Shown here one piece after another: positions 2,829 through 9,748 of a stretch of DNA of 64,000 bases. A model generated the notes under the pieces. That model had not been told where the DNA came from. It was given only the letters and a program-made list of their open reading frames with translations, and made no database searches. Position numbers and translations under genes: made by a program. The number at the start of each line of letters is the position of its first letter. Within the stretch, counting starts at the first letter, position 1. The stretch covers positions 310,001 to 374,000 of the forward strand of contig NZ_JAIUZP010000005.1 in NCBI RefSeq assembly GCF_020171315.1. Reading direction: 5' to 3'. This stretch comes from Pseudooceanicola nanhaiensis (GTDB lineage Bacteria; Pseudomonadota; Alphaproteobacteria; Rhodobacterales; Rhodobacteraceae).

Positions 2829-3473
2829 TCACTTGCCCGTCCAGCTCTGCCACCAGCGCGCCAGCCGTCCGCGTTTCTCCCGCGCGCTGTCGCTCATATC
2901 GTCCCAGGCCTCGCCCGCATCCGCGACCACCGGGTCGATGCGCCGCTGCCGGAAGCGGATCCAGCGCACCCGCACGGCCCAGACCAGCGCCAGGAAGACC
3001 ACGATGATCACGATGTTCAGCCAGGGGATGAAGCGCGCGTCCGGCCCGTCGACCTGCGTGACCCCGACCGCGTTCGGGAAGATCGAGAGGAACTCGTTGC
3101 GCCAGCCGTAATGGGTCACCGCCACCCACTTCGGGTTGTCCGAGGTCGAGCGCAGGTCGGCCGCCTCGGTCTGCAGGTTGTTGGTGTCGAACTTGAAATA
3201 GGGCGGCCAGCCCCAGCTGGTGTCCTCGTTGCGATAGACCAGCGGTTTACCGTTGGTCTTGATCGTCTGGATGAAGAAGACGTCCCGGTTCGGCCCGCCG
3301 ACCTGGTTGCCCGGCCCGGGCGAGGCCCAGAAGATCGAGTTCTCGCCGAAGTCGATCCGCCGTTCGAAGGTGTCGGTGATCCGCACGATGTCGCGCTGCG
3401 GCAGCGTGTAGTGGAAGAATGCCGCCACCAGCAGCCAGACGATCGCCCAGAACGTCCATTTCACATAGACCAT
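2829..3473 (-). CDS. DUF1523 family membrane protein
   Basis: A 214-aa protein of unknown function. It has an N-terminal membrane segment (about residues 5-23), an extracytoplasmic middle domain of about 120 residues, a second membrane segment (WLNIVIIVVFLALVWAV) and a basic cytoplasmic tail. The HYTLPQRDIVRITDTFERR stretch is what I associate with DUF1523, a family common in Rhodobacteraceae. It is the last gene of the minus-strand operon, 10 bases after the preceding 88-aa membrane protein. No catalytic motif is visible. Confidence 0.8.
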   Translation of the reverse strand: MVYVKWTFWAIVWLLVAAFFHYTLPQRDIVRITDTFERRIDFGENSIFWASPGPGNQVGGPNRDVFFIQTIKTNGKPLVYRNEDTSWGWPPYFKFDTNNLQTEAADLRSTSDNPKWVAVTHYGWRNEFLSIFPNAVGVTQVDGPDARFIPWLNIVIIVVFLALVWAVRVRWIRFRQRRIDPVVADAGEAWDDMSDSAREKRGRLARWWQSWTGK

Positions 3474-3483
3474 GAGGGTCCCC

Positions 3484-3750
3484 TTACCAGAAGTTCACGT
3501 AGTAGATGAGGAAGGCCACCACCATCACCGGGACGATGTAGATCAGCAGGATCAGTTTTCGACGGAAGGACTGGTCGTAGTCTTCCAGTTCCTCGCGCAT
3601 CCATGCCCTGCGGTCCCCGGTGCGGCCCTCGGCCTTCCAGCGCGCTTTCAGCTTGGCGCGCCGCGTTTCGCGCGACCAGATCGACACGATGACGTAAAGC
3701 ACTGTCAGCACAACAAAGCCGACGAGGATCAGGCGGAACAGTTGAACCAT
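3484..3750 (-). CDS. Small two-segment membrane protein, unknown
   Basis: An 88-aa protein with a hydrophobic segment at about residues 5-24 and another at about 66-85, joined by a strongly charged cytoplasmic-looking loop (SRETRRAKLKARWKAEGRTG onward). It starts 3 bases after the stop of the 469-aa gene and ends 10 bases before the DUF1523 gene, so the three are almost certainly co-translated. I do not recognise a family. Its position suggests a membrane partner of the operon's soluble proteins; that is inference. Confidence 0.75.
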   Translation of the reverse strand: MVQLFRLILVGFVVLTVLYVIVSIWSRETRRAKLKARWKAEGRTGDRRAWMREELEDYDQSFRRKLILLIYIVPVMVVAFLIYYVNFW

Positions 3751-3753
3751 GGA

Positions 3754-5163
3754 TCACTCCCTCCCGCGCAGCACGGCGCCCCAGGGGCCGACCTGTGCAA
3801 TCCTGTCGTCGGTCGCCGGGGCCGCAGCGGTGGCGGCGCGGGGCGACCATGGCCCAGTAACGGGCGGCGGTGGCGGTGGCGGGGCGGCCTCCATCGGGGC
3901 GTCGTGCCCGAAGAGCGCCCGCCGCGCGCCGGCCTTGTCCACCTGGTATTCCCGCGCGAGGAAATCGGCCACATAGGCCTTCTTGGTCTCGCCCCAGCCG
4001 GAATAGAGCCGGTAGAACAGCTCCTTGTGGCAGATGAAGAGCTGGCGCACATCCTTCGGCGAAAGCTCGGCCAGCACCATGTTCACGAGGTCCCGGTCGG
4101 CGTGATCCGCCGCGCGCAGGGTATAGAAATAGGCCGGGTGATCCGAGGAGATCCGCGGCCAGCGCCCGCCGTCCTCGGCCCAGGCCAGCAGGTCCCGCAG
4201 GGCGTGGTATTCCTCTGGCAGCGCCTCGGCATGATCGCGGGCCAGGGCGCGGATGTCGCGCCGGGTCGCGCCCTGCAGGTTCACGCCGCTCTCCTGTGCC
4301 GCGTCCACGACGATGAAATCCATCTTCTGGCGCAGGATCGCCGCCGCATCTATCCCGCGGGCCTTCACGATGGGTTCGACGAGGTCGTTCTGCTCCAGGA
4401 ACCGGGCCACGCGGTTGCGCTGCCGGGTGAGGGAGAAGACCTCGCCCGGGATTCCTTCCAGCGGCTCCGTCGGCCCCGCCGCAAGCGTCGCGGGATGGTC
4501 CACCCCGCGAAAGACGTAGAGACCGCCGAAATGCGCGGTCCAGAAGTTCTCCTGCCGGAAGGACATCGTCTTAAGCCGCACCGGGTTGCGGGTCACGTCG
4601 CCGGTCCGCTTCGCGGTGGTGATCATCTGGGCGATAAGCACGTCATCGAACCAGGCGTCTTCCTCCTGCAGGAACCTGTCCGAGAGCTTGCCCAGAGCCT
4701 CCGCCGCGCGCACCGTACCTGTCGTGGTATCGGCCTCGATTTCGACCCGCCGGATGTCGAAGAGCCGCGCGGGATCGCGCACCGAGAAGACGGAGTTCAC
4801 CAGCTCCCCCGCCACCGCGTCCTGCGCGGTCAGGGCGAAGAGCTGGCGCTCGTTCTCCTCGATGAAGCTGCGCAGGATCGACCGCGAGGTCGAGAATTTC
4901 GCGTTCAGCAGCGGCGCGCGCTTCTGGTCCGTGGTCAGCAGGATGAACTGCCGGTTCACCCCGTTGCGGTTGAGGTAGAGGTGGTCGTCCAGCTCTTCCC
5001 CGATCTCCGGGCTGAAGCCCGAGATATCGACGTGGAAATCCTTCAACGCCGTGCGCTTGCCCGCCAGATGCTCCAGCGCGCGGTTGTAGCGCTCGATCAT
5101 GGAGGGCGCCTGAATGTGGACGAGGTTGCCGAACATCAGGCCCTTTTCGATAAGGCGTTTCAT
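3754..5163 (-). CDS. Uncharacterised 469-aa soluble protein of the AAA operon
   Basis: The start MKRLIEKGLMFGNLVHI is preceded by GGAGG six bases upstream; longer in-frame starts lack such a site. There is no signal peptide or membrane segment. The protein is mixed alpha/beta in character and ends in a disordered-looking tail with a run of seven prolines followed by an alanine-rich stretch. No nucleotide-binding or hydrolase motif is evident and I cannot name a family with confidence. It lies 94 bases downstream of the AAA ATPase gene and 3 bases before a small membrane protein gene. It could be an adaptor or substrate-recognition subunit of the ATPase, but nothing in the sequence proves this. 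Confidence 0.75.
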   Translation of the reverse strand: MKRLIEKGLMFGNLVHIQAPSMIERYNRALEHLAGKRTALKDFHVDISGFSPEIGEELDDHLYLNRNGVNRQFILLTTDQKRAPLLNAKFSTSRSILRSFIEENERQLFALTAQDAVAGELVNSVFSVRDPARLFDIRRVEIEADTTTGTVRAAEALGKLSDRFLQEEDAWFDDVLIAQMITTAKRTGDVTRNPVRLKTMSFRQENFWTAHFGGLYVFRGVDHPATLAAGPTEPLEGIPGEVFSLTRQRNRVARFLEQNDLVEPIVKARGIDAAAILRQKMDFIVVDAAQESGVNLQGATRRDIRALARDHAEALPEEYHALRDLLAWAEDGGRWPRISSDHPAYFYTLRAADHADRDLVNMVLAELSPKDVRQLFICHKELFYRLYSGWGETKKAYVADFLAREYQVDKAGARRALFGHDAPMEAAPPPPPPPVTGPWSPRAATAAAPATDDRIAQVGPWGAVLRGRE

Positions 5164-5257
5164 GGCCGGGCCTCCGCTGCGTAAGCGGCGCACTGCATCA
5201 GGACGGATCGACCGCGCGTTCCGCTCCATACGGATGTGTCTGGGCTGAAAACCACGC

Positions 5258-7192
5258 TCATCCCTTCCCCTCCAGATACCGCCGCTTCGCCTCGTCCTGC
5301 CGCCCGAAGTCGCGCACCATGGCCTCGATCGCCACCTCGTCGGACTTGTCGGCATAGCGGAATTCGCTGTCGGCGTAGCGGTTGATCTCCTGCACCACCA
5401 TCTCCACCGTGATCGGCTGGCGCAGCTCGGCGATCATCGCCGCCTTGGTGTCGTAGTCCTTGAAGAGGAACAGCTCCGGCTCTTCCATCCAGGCATCGGG
5501 GAGCTCGAAATCCATCGCCCGCACCTTCACCGCATCGGTGATGTTCTTGATCGCCCGCCCGGTGAAGCGGGGATCGGCCTGCTGGATCGCCTTCAGATAC
5601 TCCCCCAGCTTGGCAATCGTATCGAGCCGCCCCAGACGGTCCTCGACCCGCTCCCAGACCGCCAGCAGGCCGGCTTCCTTCGGGCGGCCGTGCCCCTCGA
5701 AAGAGGCGGCGACAGCGCGCTTGATCTCCTGCGCGGCGAAAAGCTCATGCGCGCCCAGCGGGATGTCGTGCTTCTTCCCCAGCAGCAGGGCGAGGATGTC
5801 GATGTAGTCCTCCCGCGTCTGCGGCCCGTCCACGAGGAACCGCGCGCCGGCCCGTTGCCGCAGGGCGTCATCCACGTTCTCGGGATAGTTCGAGAACATG
5901 CCGAAGGTGCAGTTCCCCCGCACAACGGTGTTCGCCCCGGCAAAGGCCTCCATGAAGACCGCCGTCACCTCCTGCTGCCCGGCCGAGGACTGCCGGTCCC
6001 CGCGCTTGCCCGCGATCTGGTCGATGTCATCGATGGTGCCGAAGCCGATCACCCCCGGGTCCAGCACAGTCTGGATGAAGGCCTTGGCGTTCTGCCCCGA
6101 CTTGCCCTGATAGCTGTCGATATTGTCGATGCCGAAATTCTGGTAGCGGAAGGGATAGCCCGCCACCTGGCAATAGTCGTTCAAGAGCCCCGCCATCATC
6201 TGGATCAGCGTCGTCTTGCCGGTGCCCGGCGCGCCGTCCCCCATGAAGGTGAAGATGAAGCCGCCCAACTCGGCAAAGGGGTTCAGCCGCCGCTCGAAAT
6301 CATAGGCCATGAGCATCTTGGCCAGCTTCATCGCCTGGTACTTGGCGATGTGGTTGCCCACCACCTCGTGCGGTTTCTTGAAGGCCATGGTCAGCACGCT
6401 GCCGCGCGCCTTCGTCGCCGGGGTGAAGCCCTGAAGCGTCAGGTCGTCCGCCTCCACCCGCCATGCGGCAGAGGTGAAGGCCTCCAGCCGCGGGGCGGTG
6501 GCCGCGCGGGCCGCGACCTTCTCCATGACCTTCTCGGCAAAGCCCGCGACCACGGCCACCAGCCGCGCCTCGTCGGTGCCAAGCGCCGCGATGTCCTGAT
6601 CCAGCTCCCAGAGCATCCCGTGCAGCGCAAGCGGCGCATTGTCGGTGAGGATCTCCTCCACCTCGCCCGGCTCCACGGTGACCTCGCCCAGATGCGGGGC
6701 CAGCAGGTAGGCCAGCGTATTGGCGCAGACATGGAGCACGACCAGCGCCTCCGCCGTCAGCAACGCGCCGAAGTCCGCCTTCCGGTCGGCGGGCAGAGCC
6801 CCTTCAAGGTTCGCCCGCTTCAGCCCGTCGAGCCCGCTCGCCTCGGAAAGCTGCTCCCCCATGGCCAGCGCCACGGCAAGGGCCCGGCGAAGCGCCCCCA
6901 TGACGGCGGCCTGCCGGGGCGAGACCAGCGGGTCTTCTGCCTCCGCGCTCTCGATCCGCTCCAGCAGCCGCACGCCCTCGGGCCGCGCCACGCTGCGCCC
7001 GGCCAGTCCCGGCGTGGTGGAGCGGAACCGCCGCCGCGTGCCAATCCCGGAGGACCGCTCCGCCACCGGTGCAGCCCCGCCCGCCGCGATCCGCGGCGCA
7101 TGGTCAAAGCCCTCCAGCAGGGCAAAGGCCGCGGGGTAGTGCTTCACGATGTCCTCTTCCCGCAACTCCATGCGGTTTCCGGTCAGGCTCAT
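5258..7192 (-). CDS. AAA family ATPase with a large unassigned N-terminal region
   Basis: A 644-aa protein. About 300 N-terminal residues, largely alpha-helical in character, show no motif I recognise. They are followed by an AAA module: Walker A GDGAPGTGKTTL (about 318-329), a Walker B-like FGTIDDIDQIAG, sensor-type MFSNYP, and DDALRQRAGARFLVDGP carrying likely arginine-finger residues. The start MSLTGNRMEL is chosen because GAGGGG lies just upstream; a GTG 18 bases further up overlaps a family 1 repeat. It is the only recognisable enzyme of the operon. The AAA core suggests ATP-driven remodelling of a protein partner; the substrate is unknown. Confidence 0.88.
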   Translation of the reverse strand: MSLTGNRMELREEDIVKHYPAAFALLEGFDHAPRIAAGGAAPVAERSSGIGTRRRFRSTTPGLAGRSVARPEGVRLLERIESAEAEDPLVSPRQAAVMGALRRALAVALAMGEQLSEASGLDGLKRANLEGALPADRKADFGALLTAEALVVLHVCANTLAYLLAPHLGEVTVEPGEVEEILTDNAPLALHGMLWELDQDIAALGTDEARLVAVVAGFAEKVMEKVAARAATAPRLEAFTSAAWRVEADDLTLQGFTPATKARGSVLTMAFKKPHEVVGNHIAKYQAMKLAKMLMAYDFERRLNPFAELGGFIFTFMGDGAPGTGKTTLIQMMAGLLNDYCQVAGYPFRYQNFGIDNIDSYQGKSGQNAKAFIQTVLDPGVIGFGTIDDIDQIAGKRGDRQSSAGQQEVTAVFMEAFAGANTVVRGNCTFGMFSNYPENVDDALRQRAGARFLVDGPQTREDYIDILALLLGKKHDIPLGAHELFAAQEIKRAVAASFEGHGRPKEAGLLAVWERVEDRLGRLDTIAKLGEYLKAIQQADPRFTGRAIKNITDAVKVRAMDFELPDAWMEEPELFLFKDYDTKAAMIAELRQPITVEMVVQEINRYADSEFRYADKSDEVAIEAMVRDFGRQDEAKRRYLEGKG

Positions 7193-7203
7193 GCGCTCCC
7201 CCT

Positions 7204-7235
7204 CATCCACTGTTCGAAAATATCCCCGCCGGAGG
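7204..7235 (+). repeat. Family 1 intergenic repeat, copy 2 (inside operon)
   Basis: CATCCACTGTTC followed by an AAATATCCCC core, lacking the CAGACAG hairpin. It sits in the 65-base gap between the 378-aa gene and the AAA ATPase gene, immediately 5' of the ATPase ribosome binding site. Confidence 0.55.
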
Positions 7236-7257
7236 CCTCAAATCTCATGTCCCGCCC

Positions 7258-8394
7258 TCACCGGTAGCGCAGCACGGCGCCGTCGGGCGCCACCACGAAC
7301 TTGCGCACGTTGGCGAAGCCCGGCGGGTTGCGCTCGCTCAGCACCTGGAAGGGCCGCGCCGGCAGGATGACAGAGCGGACCATCTCCGTCGCCCCAAGGT
7401 CCACGCCGCGCCCGCCGAAGGGATCGAGCGCATAGACCTCGCGCTCCACCCGGCCGAACCAGCCCTGCGCCTCGGTGGTCACCCGCTCGCTTTCCAGCCG
7501 CTCCTCGGTCCAGACCAGCGCCCAGTCCTGCCCCTCGGTCGAGGAAGCTTCGACCAGCACGTCGTGGATCGGCCCGGACTGGCGGGTATAGGCCGAGGAA
7601 TGCATCGGCCCGATGTGGAACCGGCGCAGGCGCTTGGGGTGCAGGTGATCGAAATCCGCGTCGAAGCCGCTGGCGATGGTCAGCAGCTTCAGCCCGCCGA
7701 GGCTCTGCGCCATCAGGTGGGCCTGCGCCTCGGGCCAGCGGCGCTCGTCCTTGGGCAGGGCGACCTTCCCGGTGTCCTCCACCTCCATCAGGTAGAGGCA
7801 GGGCAGGTTCACCTCGGTGTCGTAGACCGACCAGTGCAGCAGGTAGCGCCGCCGCCCCTCGCCGACATCGCCCAGCCAGACCGCCTCGGGATCGTTGCGC
7901 GGCCAGAACAGCTCCCCCCGCGCCAGTTCCTCGTAGTAGAGCCGCTGCGACAGGGCGAACTGCAGCTTCGTCGGCACCTCGAGGTCACCGATGATCTTGC
8001 GCAGCATCTGCGCCTTCAGCTCCTCGACCGTGGGCATGTCGCGCAGGTGGCGGGCGGCCTGCTGCGCGTCATTGGCCATCACCATCAGCTCCTGCGCTGC
8101 CGGAAAGCCGCTTTCGTGGTTGTCGATGGTCAGCGAGCCGAAGAACCGGCCCGTATCGCGCCCGGTCATCAGGTATTTCATCGAGAGCGCGCGGAAGGTG
8201 AAGGTCAGCGCGGAGACATGCCGCGCCAGCGCCGTCACCTCGGCACGGGTGAAATCACCCTCCGCCTCCATCACGCCCGCGACCCGGCCCATGTGGGCCA
8301 TGATCGCCTCGAACTTGCGGAAATAGCGCCGCGCCGCGACCCCGTCGGAAATCCCCACGTGGTCGTTGCCCGGGCTCTTGCTGCTGTCAGTCAT
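7258..8394 (-). CDS. Uncharacterised 378-aa protein of the AAA operon
   Basis: Starts MTDSSKSPGNDHVG. The N-terminal third is helical; the rest is rich in aromatic and charged residues. There are no signal peptide, membrane segments or known motifs. Notable stretches are LFWPRNDPEAVWLGDVG and RRFHIGPMHSSAYTRQSG. The frame extends further upstream but overlaps the preceding coiled-coil gene, so the internal ATG at 8394 is preferred. It lies 73 bases after the coiled-coil gene. I do not recognise the family; existence as a gene is supported by protein-like composition and operon position. Confidence 0.72.
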   Translation of the reverse strand: MTDSSKSPGNDHVGISDGVAARRYFRKFEAIMAHMGRVAGVMEAEGDFTRAEVTALARHVSALTFTFRALSMKYLMTGRDTGRFFGSLTIDNHESGFPAAQELMVMANDAQQAARHLRDMPTVEELKAQMLRKIIGDLEVPTKLQFALSQRLYYEELARGELFWPRNDPEAVWLGDVGEGRRRYLLHWSVYDTEVNLPCLYLMEVEDTGKVALPKDERRWPEAQAHLMAQSLGGLKLLTIASGFDADFDHLHPKRLRRFHIGPMHSSAYTRQSGPIHDVLVEASSTEGQDWALVWTEERLESERVTTEAQGWFGRVEREVYALDPFGGRGVDLGATEMVRSVILPARPFQVLSERNPPGFANVRKFVVAPDGAVLRYR

Positions 8395-8467
8395 CTTAGG
8401 GTCCGTCCGGTTGGCCACCCTGCCGGAAGGCGCGCAGGGCGCCGGGCCCCGCAGGCGGCCGTGCCTC

Positions 8468-9544
8468 TCACGCGCCGTAGAGGTTCTTGTCGTGTTTCTC
8501 GACGATCTTCTGGAACCGGCGGGCAAAGCGTTCGTCCGCCTTGGCCTTGGCTTCCAGCACCTCGCGGGCAAAGACCATGTGGCCCTCGTGGGCCTCCAGC
8601 ATGTCAGCCATGCGGGCATTGGTGGCCGCGCCGATCTGGGCCATGGCCTGCTGCGCCTGCTTGTCGGTCTCGGTGCCGATCTCGTTGATCCGGTGCGCCA
8701 CGTCCTGCTGCTGCGCGGTCTTCAGCGACTTGGTCAGCGCATCGTAGAGCACGACCCGCTGCTTGGTGTCCGTCTGCAGCTTGTTGATCAGAACCATCTG
8801 CGTCGCCGCCTGGTTCTGCAGGCTGTCGACCCAGGATTTGCCCTTCTCGATATAGCGCTCCAGCGTCTGCGACTTGGCGAGCTTCACCTGCTCGTCCTGC
8901 ACCAGCGCGTTGTAGTGCGCGTTCAGGTCGGCCAGCTCGGTCTCCAGCTTGGTGCGCGCGGCGGCGTCCTGCTCGACCGAGATCTTGTTCTCCAGCTCGA
9001 TGATCTTCGGATCCATCGCCGTGATCTCGGCCCGGACGGCCTCCAGCTCACCCACGGTGGTCTCGCGTTCGTCCAGCGTGTCGGTCAGGTTGGCCTCGAC
9101 CTTGGTCTTCTGGCTGTTGAGCACCTCCAGCTGGCTCTGCAGCAGCCGGGTGATCACGTCGGACTTGGAAATCAGGTCCTGCAGCTTGTCGTCGATCGAG
9201 GCGGTGCGGATACGCTCCTGCCGCATCTGGTCCGACTTGTGGCGCGCGAAGAGGCCGACGAAGCTTTCCCACCCGGTCTTGGAGCGGATCTCCTCGAAAT
9301 CCTTGGAAAAGCCCGCCGTCACATCGTCCAGCCCCATGATCAGCTCGGCGATATTGGCGTTCATCGCCTCGGTGTGGGCATGGACATCGGCCAGCGTCGC
9401 ATTCTCGATCTCGGCGATCGCGTCGCCGCCGGTCTGCATCTTGGCGCGGGCCGCCTCGATCCGGCTGGTCAGTTCGGCAATCTTGGCCTGCGCCTCGGTC
9501 ACCTCGGTCTGGCTCTGGCGCAGCTGCGCGTCGAAATCGGCCAT
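8468..9544 (-). CDS. Long coiled-coil protein, first gene of the AAA operon
   Basis: A 358-aa protein dominated by heptad-like Glu/Lys/Gln/Ala/Leu patterns. Two coiled-coil blocks (about 1-75 and 120-355) flank a short non-coil patch containing GWESFVGLFARHKS. It is acidic and soluble, with no signal peptide. The organisation loosely recalls TelA-type toxic-anion-resistance or PspA-like membrane-stress proteins, but I see no sequence motif that proves either. GAGGAGA lies a few bases before the ATG. It is divergent from a secreted-protein gene across about 200 bases. Confidence 0.8.
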   Translation of the reverse strand: MADFDAQLRQSQTEVTEAQAKIAELTSRIEAARAKMQTGGDAIAEIENATLADVHAHTEAMNANIAELIMGLDDVTAGFSKDFEEIRSKTGWESFVGLFARHKSDQMRQERIRTASIDDKLQDLISKSDVITRLLQSQLEVLNSQKTKVEANLTDTLDERETTVGELEAVRAEITAMDPKIIELENKISVEQDAAARTKLETELADLNAHYNALVQDEQVKLAKSQTLERYIEKGKSWVDSLQNQAATQMVLINKLQTDTKQRVVLYDALTKSLKTAQQQDVAHRINEIGTETDKQAQQAMAQIGAATNARMADMLEAHEGHMVFAREVLEAKAKADERFARRFQKIVEKHDKNLYGA

Positions 9545-9748
9545 CGCACTCTCCTCACTGAAATCTATTCAAAAGCAATATGGGGATCATGCCCCGGTCC
9601 TGCACGGGATGATACCGGTTTTTCGATGCGGGGGCAGGGTTTCACGGGTCAGGTTTACCGGACTTGCCAGCCCGGCTGCCATTTTGCCATTCTGAGCCAG
9701 ATGTACGTCGCGGGCAGAGTTTCGCCCCATTTCAAAGGAAGTTTTTGA

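Follow-up and report, generated by a model that had tools for sequence, protein, structure and literature searches.

A conserved AAA ATPase operon with a variable gene slot, a possible modular machine for protection or stress

In an operon found in many marine bacteria, a four-gene core, encoding a coiled-coil protein (g1), a protein termed g2, an AAA ATPase (g3) and a DUF6638 protein (g4), is joined to a membrane module, and most of the copies studied have an extra gene, widely different between species, at one fixed spot, between the ATPase and DUF6638 genes. This variable slot may point to a modular machine for protection or stress. The operon was analyzed in a 64,000-nucleotide stretch of the Pseudooceanicola nanhaiensis genome (hereafter, the window), where all six genes are present on the minus strand at 2829-9544. 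They run from g1 (8468..9544, 358 aa), with which the core begins, through g2 (7258..8394, 378 aa) and the ATPase gene g3 (5258..7192, 644 aa) to g4 (3754..5163, 469 aa), with which the core ends, and continue with two members of the membrane module, g5 (3484..3750, 88 aa, two membrane segments according to hydropathy) and g6 (2829..3473, 214 aa, a DUF1523 protein with two membrane segments, likewise by hydropathy, and a loop of ~125 aa). The gaps between them are, in the order of transcription, 73, 65, 94, 3 and 10 nt. The slot corresponds to the 94 nt between g3 and g4 (5164..5257, minus strand) and is empty here, so that its variability is invisible from the window alone.

The original prediction had described six minus-strand genes in this order as an unnamed AAA ATPase operon with membrane partners, and the comparison of genomes bears this out beyond the present strain: the full set was found together in 121 of 140 dereplicated loci, and the junction distances place the genes in this order. 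Of the remaining 19 loci, some are cut by contig ends, nine belong to a family limited to g1-g4, and L140 is a decayed locus. An NCBIfam scan of the six proteins gave no model over its cut-off, PADLOC returned weak matches only, no paper in the literature collection searched mentions DUF6638, and no function for any of the operon genes was found in the literature and database searches. The protein g4, previously listed as unknown, does have a family assignment, DUF6638 (PF20343; 768.8 bits against a cut-off of 27, profile positions 1-439 of 439), although this is itself a family of unknown function in Pfam, as are DUF1523 and DUF2852, while DUF2333 is described there as uncharacterized.

The idea of a single six-part machine did not survive the comparison. 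The core occurs without an adjoining DUF1523 gene in Rhizobiaceae and Vibrio, and DUF1523 (PF07509; 234.5 bits for g6 against a cut-off of 23) occurs without the core, mostly accompanied by g5. The operon is two modules joined, the second consisting of a protein of ~114 aa (family f0), g5 and DUF1523, and this membrane module is kept in Rhodobacterales without the core. In one such core-less genome, weak relics of the core remain. In Rhizobiaceae, DUF2333 follows g4 in 9/9 loci, and the setting of the core is stable, with fhs in 9/9 and thymidine kinase in 8/9. The suggestion of an envelope-stress machine is not supported, the membrane proteins being the only pointer to it.

The distribution of the core is patchy: of 196 genomes sampled from the order, 113 have an ATPase match and the other 83 have none. 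The ATPase is also present in marine bacteria that can be cultured, for example Phaeobacter inhibens. The core has also moved, as one genome from another class groups with Leisingera (support 100/99). Phage records contained no ATPase match at E<=1e-10.

Among the core proteins, the ATPase has the clearest affiliation (PF00004, 44.7 bits against a cut-off of 21.2). Its Walker A motif, GDGAPGTGKTT, lies at 6209..6241 and its Walker B region, IGFGTIDDIDQIAGKR, at 6002..6049 (both minus strand), as seen in an alignment of 142 ATPases in which the five variants listed, which account for 139 sequences, all have GDGxPGTGKT. The classical AAA Walker B motif is hhhhDE, an Asp-Glu pair with the catalytic Glu; here, it ends in Asp-Asp, and the second position is Asp in 142/142 aligned ATPases. 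The DE motif is no requirement for Pfam AAA membership. Paired arginines after sensor 1 have a role in AAA proteins, and an ALRQR..R motif at this place is present in the five variants listed (139/142 sequences) and in Vibrio. Weak sequence matches to an i-AAA protease domain (5ubv, E 1.8e-5) and a fidgetin-like protein (4l15, E 3.6e-4) reflect the AAA core common to these classical proteins, from which g3 differs in its invariant Asp-Asp and in a long N-terminal part of ~300 aa outside the Pfam match. The PADLOC matches are likewise weak (TRIP13, E 9.1e-5; IetA, E 0.0052), and simple hydropathy indicates one marginal membrane stretch.

In the Pfam scan, g1, g2 and g5 fell below every cut-off. 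The coiled coil of g1 was called by eye and has weak coiled-coil matches only; LmuB (PADLOC) also matches weakly (E 4.3e-4). A relationship of g1 to TelA was considered, and no link was detected: TelA (PF05816) is absent from the g1 Pfam matches up to E 1, and hhalign against a thin profile of five TelA rows gave a probability of 0.3%. The genome has a separate TelA gene. For g2, a structure was predicted (pLDDT 86.2, pTM 0.85) with a helical N-terminal half and a beta-rich C-terminal half; the structure search gave no confident match, and simple hydropathy detected no membrane segment.

The junction between the ATPase gene and g4 stands apart from those downstream of it. Of 136 loci, 111 have more than 250 bp at this place, while neither g4-g5 nor g5-g6 is that long in any of 123. 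One question is whether such a slot could be an artifact of assembly or ORF calling. Metagenome-assembled genomes do contribute some loci (in L048, for instance, only the ATPase is present), but filled slots also occur in genomes of named isolates and in one annotated complete replicon, which makes this explanation highly improbable. The mean GC content is 0.543 in the slot and 0.607 in the ATPase gene, with the slot being lower in 88/111 loci. The 151 slot ORFs fall into 67 BLAST families, and among 22 pairs of loci whose ATPases share at least 95% identity, 10 have a slot family in common and 12 do not. Families recur through separate changes on the ATPase tree (f1 in 19 loci with 17 changes, f4 in 6 with 6, f3 in 6 with 5). 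Exchangeable candidate effector genes are found at one position.

The slot genes also fit closely between their neighbors. In 58/111 loci, an ORF of at least 60 aa shares 4 or 1 nt with the end of the ATPase gene, where 200 draws of random positions gave a mean of 6.6 and a maximum of 13. An equally short overlap with the start of g4 is seen in 63/111 (random mean of 0.37, maximum of 2), and overlaps at both ends occur in 38/111.

Could accessory genes nevertheless simply hitchhike in the slot, as a permissive and well-expressed landing site, the core itself being a membrane-linked remodeling or quality-control ATPase? This possibility, close to the original prediction, must be taken seriously, although we consider it somewhat less likely than the reading favored below. 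The slot is shorter than 250 bp in 25 of 136 loci in which both the ATPase and g4 were found, the window among them, which suggests that the core can do without a slot gene; the membrane module adjoins the core; the slot genes that can be recognized belong to types that move between genomes as accessory genes; and other junctions also exceed 250 bp (g1-g2 in 45/136 loci, g2-g3 in 15/138). A landing site would also suit S. meliloti, where a gene with an endonuclease domain occupies the slot and adjoins an IS element. Hitchhiking leaves unexplained, however, the double-ended overlaps, the recurrence of f1 on the tree and the placement of its strong matches.

The f1 proteins, 16/19 of which were aligned, have a constant N-terminal membrane module, NExGDTLAGxxxxLAF...Q..EL, and variable tails, and two of them match putAbiC. 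In the 196 genomes, all 15 strong f1 matches (E<=3e-30), at least 5 of which come from loci that built the f1 model, follow the ATPase directly, at a distance of up to ~500 nt, and the 83 genomes lacking an ATPase match have none; nine weak matches (E 1e-14 to 4e-4) lie elsewhere. Of the f3 and f4 matches, 4/9 and 2/6 are likewise not beside the ATPase. The commonest slot family, f0 (31 loci), was rejected as a dedicated effector, since 14 of 53 f0 matches come from genomes in which no ATPase was matched.

Among the remaining slot genes are matches to Mrr, AbiJ_NTD4, Schlafen AlbA_2, DUF2971, PIN_10, DUF433 and DUF559; a few slot genes resemble abortive-infection proteins or nucleases. Pfam matches cover only a small share of slot ORFs. 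PADLOC assigned 19 models to 108 slot ORFs and 3 to a second set of 43, compared with 11 models, one ORF each, for flanking controls, and its matches were not clearly commoner in the slot than in these 80 flanking ORFs. In another explanation, the operon has expanded at the slot by gaining small membrane proteins that are specific to lineages and tune the DUF1523 module, and the defense-like matches are a chance minority. A predicted membrane segment in 67/93 overlapping slot ORFs (simple hydropathy) is consistent with this, as is the location of f0 near DUF1523 even without the core, in 12/12 cases fetched of the 14 mentioned above. Nevertheless, slots are filled in Rhizobiaceae, where DUF1523 is absent from the locus, and nuclease- and Abi-type slot proteins fit poorly, which makes this explanation unlikely.

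We tentatively favor, at somewhat less than even chances, the reading that the four-protein, ATP-driven core acts as a complex that controls an effector, encoded in the slot and open to exchange. This reading draws on the length, turnover, low GC content and short overlaps of the slot, the recurrence of f1, f4 and f3, the position of the strong f1 matches, the Abi- and nuclease-type slot genes, and the patchy distribution and movement of the core. Counting against it are the empty slots, the ties of f0 to DUF1523, the f3, f4 and weak f1 matches elsewhere, the f1 matches from model-building loci, the PADLOC comparison with flanking ORFs, the small share of slot ORFs with Pfam matches, the stable setting in Rhizobiaceae, the phage records devoid of ATPase matches and the upstream palindrome, which about half of the loci lack. 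We infer that g1, g2, the ATPase and DUF6638 would form this complex. The effector, usually a membrane protein, would often be translated in step with the preceding ATPase or the following DUF6638 protein. In Rhodobacterales, the core is joined to the membrane module of g5 and DUF1523, with f0 in some loci, and in Rhizobiaceae, DUF2333 takes the place of this module. Under stress, for example infection, the core may sense the event and change its ATP state, and it may then release or recruit the effector at the inner membrane. A more specific version, which is possible but less secure, is that these loci constitute an unnamed class of bacterial immune systems, defined by the g1-g2-AAA-DUF6638 core and a translationally coupled slot, with a dedicated family of polymorphic membrane effectors (the GDTLAG module with variable C-terminal killing domains) and recruited nucleases and Abi proteins.

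The region upstream of the operon is also shared in part. A palindrome, ATGTAA-N7-TTACAT, is present there in 67/136 loci and missing in about half; DUF2852-type genes have the same upstream palindrome. It is absent from the window, where GGGGCATGATCCCC (9582..9595, minus strand) lies upstream of g1, roughly at the palindrome's place as matched by eye.

An exchanging slot in which many genes retain short overlaps amounts to a natural experiment, in which the slot genes are candidate effectors and strains with empty slots are controls. If the proposed control function is true, a set of uncharacterized membrane effectors becomes testable, and DUF6638, DUF1523 and DUF2852 gain a context. Among known systems, CBASS and retrons are modular anti-phage systems with exchangeable effectors. 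The loci described here resemble them in having a conserved sensing or control part and exchangeable effectors, many of which are membrane proteins or nucleases, but differ in that the core has no recognized sensor enzyme, the slot can be empty and the defense role is putative. Type I restriction loci contain embedded accessory genes such as anticodon nucleases, likewise unrelated defense genes at a fixed junction inside a conserved operon; here, however, the core is not recognized as a restriction system, and overlaps of 1 or 4 nt with core genes are frequent among the slot ORFs. Finally, P2 and P4 phages have hotspots of antiviral genes (PMC9122126), and these share with the slot a fixed position and changing genes, some of them antiviral, whereas the slot lies inside a bacterial operon, its genes overlap their neighbors, and the ATPase is unmatched in phage records.

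The original prediction of a six-gene operon built around an AAA ATPase held well beyond the window: all six genes are kept together in 121 of 140 loci, which were found through DUF6638 or the ATPase and are therefore not a random sample, and the order is borne out by the junction distances. These loci are what remained of 141 (the window, 4 found via DUF6638 and 136 via the ATPase) once the near-duplicate L155 had been dropped for gene-content counts. The ATPase profile matched 113 of 196 genomes of the order, in pieces in two of them (G408 and G422), and 26 of 398 genomes from the phylum. Only g1-g4 were found in 12 of the 140 loci, namely L038 and L046 (both cut short), L140 and nine loci of one other family; L008 and L134 have g1-g4 plus g6 without g5, g1 is missing at a contig end in L044 and L047, and g1-g3 were found in L070 and L096. 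The core copy of L140 is decayed, with the ATPase and DUF6638 matches each broken into three short frames. In L096 (Roseovarius sp. ZX-A-9, L096:11936-21932), g4-g6 were not found downstream of g1-g3. The metagenome-assembled genome L048 has the ATPase alone, with the other five genes not found within 10 kb, a layout that may come from misassembly.

In the window, the six genes occupy 9544 to 2829 on the minus strand, separated by 73, 65, 94, 3 and 10 nt. Pfam matches were obtained for the ATPase (g3, 44.7 bits), g4 (DUF6638, 768.8 bits) and g6 (DUF1523, 234.5 bits); the coiled-coil protein g1, g2 and the small membrane protein g5 did not reach the Pfam cut-off, none of the six proteins reached that of NCBIfam, and PADLOC returned weak matches only. 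The genome has one ATPase match and is close to Maritimibacter alkaliphilus (L017), whose ATPase is 99% identical. Elsewhere in the genome, separate from the operon, lies a TelA gene (G000:C1:229637-230629).

The gap between neighbouring genes exceeded 250 bp in 111 of 136 loci at the ATPase-g4 junction (hereafter the slot), in 45 of 136 at g1-g2, in 15 of 138 at g2-ATPase, and in none of 123 at either g4-g5 or g5-g6. Short ATPase-g4 gaps were also seen: 48 nt in Vibrio, 8 in L008, 0 in L093, -1 in L188 and -4 in both L133 and L134. The longest ORF lies on the operon strand in 100 of the 111 slots, and mean GC is 0.543 in the slot versus 0.607 in the ATPase gene, being lower in the slot in 88 cases. 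An overlap of 1 or 4 nt between a slot ORF of at least 60 aa and the ATPase stop was present in 58 of the 111 slots, and one with the g4 start in 63, whereas 200 draws of random positions gave means of 6.6 (maximum 13) and 0.37 (maximum 2), respectively; 38 slots had overlaps at both ends. The two smaller slots behaved similarly, with overlaps at the two ends in 18 and 16 of 45 g1-g2 slots (expected 2.7 and 0.2) and in 8 and 6 of 15 g2-ATPase slots (expected 0.8 and 0.0).

Clustering by BLAST single linkage, a method that may join unrelated rows, placed the 151 slot ORFs in 67 families, and the 93 overlapping ORFs, 67 of them with a membrane segment predicted by simple hydropathy, in 44. A slot family was common to 10 of 22 locus pairs at an ATPase identity of at least 95%, 28 of 46 at 90-95%, 19 of 55 at 85-90%, 40 of 213 at 80-85%, 541 of 4528 at 70-80% and 81 of 1241 below 70%. 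Even between the window and L017, the slot measures 94 versus 280 nt. Mapped on a tree of the ATPases of 136 loci built with FastTree, slot presence or absence required a minimum of 20 changes, family f0 (31 loci) 12, f1 (19 loci) 17, the DUF559-like f2 (8 loci) 6, f3 (6 loci) 5 and f4 (6 loci) 6, counts that do not separate gain from loss and are inflated by tree errors. In close comparisons (ATPase identity of at least 92%), the slot gene was more diverged than the ATPase in 19 of 21, the exceptions being both ORFs of the pair L152/L154.

Pfam searches (E<=0.001) covered 108 slot ORFs from the first loci and 43 from a later set; the 108, a few of which lie on the opposite strand, had all been called by a rule slightly different from that of the clustered ORFs. 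DUF559 was found in 4 and 3 of these, putAbiC in 1 and 1 (L061 and L148) and DUF2971 in 2, while Mrr_cat, Mrr_N, AbiJ_NTD4, PIN_10, DUF433, Schlafen AlbA_2, NA-iREase1, Hint_2, HATPase_c_2, BrkB and RRG7 each occurred in one. Among 56 of the 59 smaller-slot ORFs, Fic, DUF4279, CopD-like and holin-like matches occurred once each, and all other scanned ORFs lacked a match at this threshold. PADLOC gave 19 models over the 108 ORFs and 3 over the 43, versus 11 models, one ORF each, over 80 of the 111 flanking ORFs chosen as controls; defence enrichment was not shown by this comparison, which is weak because the control genes are longer. The DUF559-like slot ORFs of L141, L142 and L185 begin with apparent translated intergenic repeats (e.g. 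GEKVPEGRMRGS), hinting at a mobile-type insertion.

Two main readings compete: the ATPase may be a housekeeping protein whose operon is a convenient address for slot genes, or it may belong to a control complex whose effector can be exchanged. The f1 family bears on this choice. Its proteins (16 of 19 aligned) have a common N-terminal module with the motif NExGDTLAGxxxxLAFxWxxxTVxLQSxELRxQR, and variable tails, those of L061 and L148 being the ones that match putAbiC. Across 196 genomes, the f1 profile gave 25 matches, of which 16 lie no more than 2.5 kb from the ATPase. These include every one of the 15 matches with E<=3e-30, each on the same strand and within about 500 nt downstream of it, although at least 5 of the 15 (L022, L143, L148, L157 and L182) match by construction, since these loci were used to build the model. 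The nine matches away from the ATPase are weak (E 1e-14 to 4e-4). The informative part of the search is thus the absence of strong copies anywhere but beside the ATPase, including the 83 genomes in which the ATPase profile matched nothing. For f4 and f3, 4 of 6 and 5 of 9 matches, respectively, lie beside the ATPase. The restriction of strong f1 to this position, its repeated appearance and the overlaps kept at both slot ends tilt away from the housekeeping reading, the main rival but the less likely of the two, and lead us tentatively to favour the control complex. In such a complex, the slot gene would be translated in step with the ATPase, and its product could be an effector that the ATPase keeps in check or sets off.

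The operon also divides into two modules, a core (g1-g4) and a membrane module (f0, g5 and DUF1523). On pSymB of Sinorhizobium meliloti, thymidine kinase precedes g1, g2 and the ATPase; next come an endonuclease-domain gene resembling the DUF559 slot ORFs and an IS element, and then a gene occupying the g4 position, DUF2333 and formate-THF ligase. In the nine-locus g1-g4-only family, g4 is followed by DUF2333 in 9/9, with formate-THF ligase in 9/9, thymidine kinase in 8/9 and DUF1523 in 0/9; we take this family to be Rhizobiaceae because in one member, L137, DUF2333 is 71% identical to that of S. meliloti and the ATPase groups with its counterpart there (99/94). A Vibrio vulnificus record has g1, g2, ATPase and DUF6638, all profile-confirmed, with the 48-nt gap and with mfd, not DUF1523, as the next gene, and a V. 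parahaemolyticus record has the same layout by annotation. The gene annotated mfd lies directly 3' of DUF6638 at L189:12277-15738 and L191:12277-15738.

Conversely, 14 of the 53 matches to f0, a small hydrophobic protein of about 114 aa in which about three membrane segments can be made out by eye, fall in genomes that gave no ATPase match; in the 12 of these loci fetched, DUF1523 was nearby in 12 and g5 in 11, and in L217 the f0/DUF1523 neighbourhood has a gap of about 970 bp. At L219:8325-9615, weak relics stand in the expected order (g1 start, a near-end ATPase stretch, f0, g4 end, g5, DUF1523; best E 3.7e-5 for g1, 5.5e-6 for the ATPase and 1.8e-5 for g4), so the core was probably lost here while the membrane module survived; the remaining 11 loci had no core relics at E<=0.01. 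As for horizontal movement, the complete six-gene set is present in L133, whose genome belongs to a different class, and the ATPase there groups with Leisingera (100/99); the ATPase of L134, whose genome is of a different family within the class, branches among the Rhodobacterales rows (100/99). The ATPase was matched at E<=1e-30 in ten plasmid records, all of them at least 0.88 Mb and predicted non-mobilizable; none of the phage records searched gave a match.

Upstream of g1, the palindrome ATGTAA-N4..9-TTACAT (10 or more of the 12 arm bases matching), searched after enriched 7-mers had been seen, occurs in 67 of 136 loci versus 3.0 per shuffled set, with a spacing of 7 in 64 of the 67 and a median site beginning 61 bp before the start codon; it was not found in the window. 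Of 41 genomes of the order, 15 contain the exact palindrome and none its reversed control. Taking one locus per genome, 8 of the 15 are beside a DUF2852-type gene, 2 precede g1, 2 are at LysR-type genes and 3 at neither, as read by eye with a Pfam check on one DUF2852 (L199) and one LysR protein (L200). The DUF2852-type genes (L192, L193, L195, L196, L199, L201, L205 and L206, around position 1500) suggest a regulator common to them and the ATPase operon. LysR-type regulator genes stand at the palindrome in L200 and L203, around position 1500, and a LysR-type protein is an unproven candidate for the regulator.

The AlphaFold models of g2 (pLDDT 86.2, pTM 0.85) and g4 (pLDDT 86.6, pTM 0.81) are confident, and structure comparison yielded no clear relative of either, which does not by itself make the folds novel. 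The ATPase has an intact Walker A motif, and its Walker B motif closes with Asp-Asp in all 142 sequences, Vibrio included, where the classical motif has Glu at the final position.
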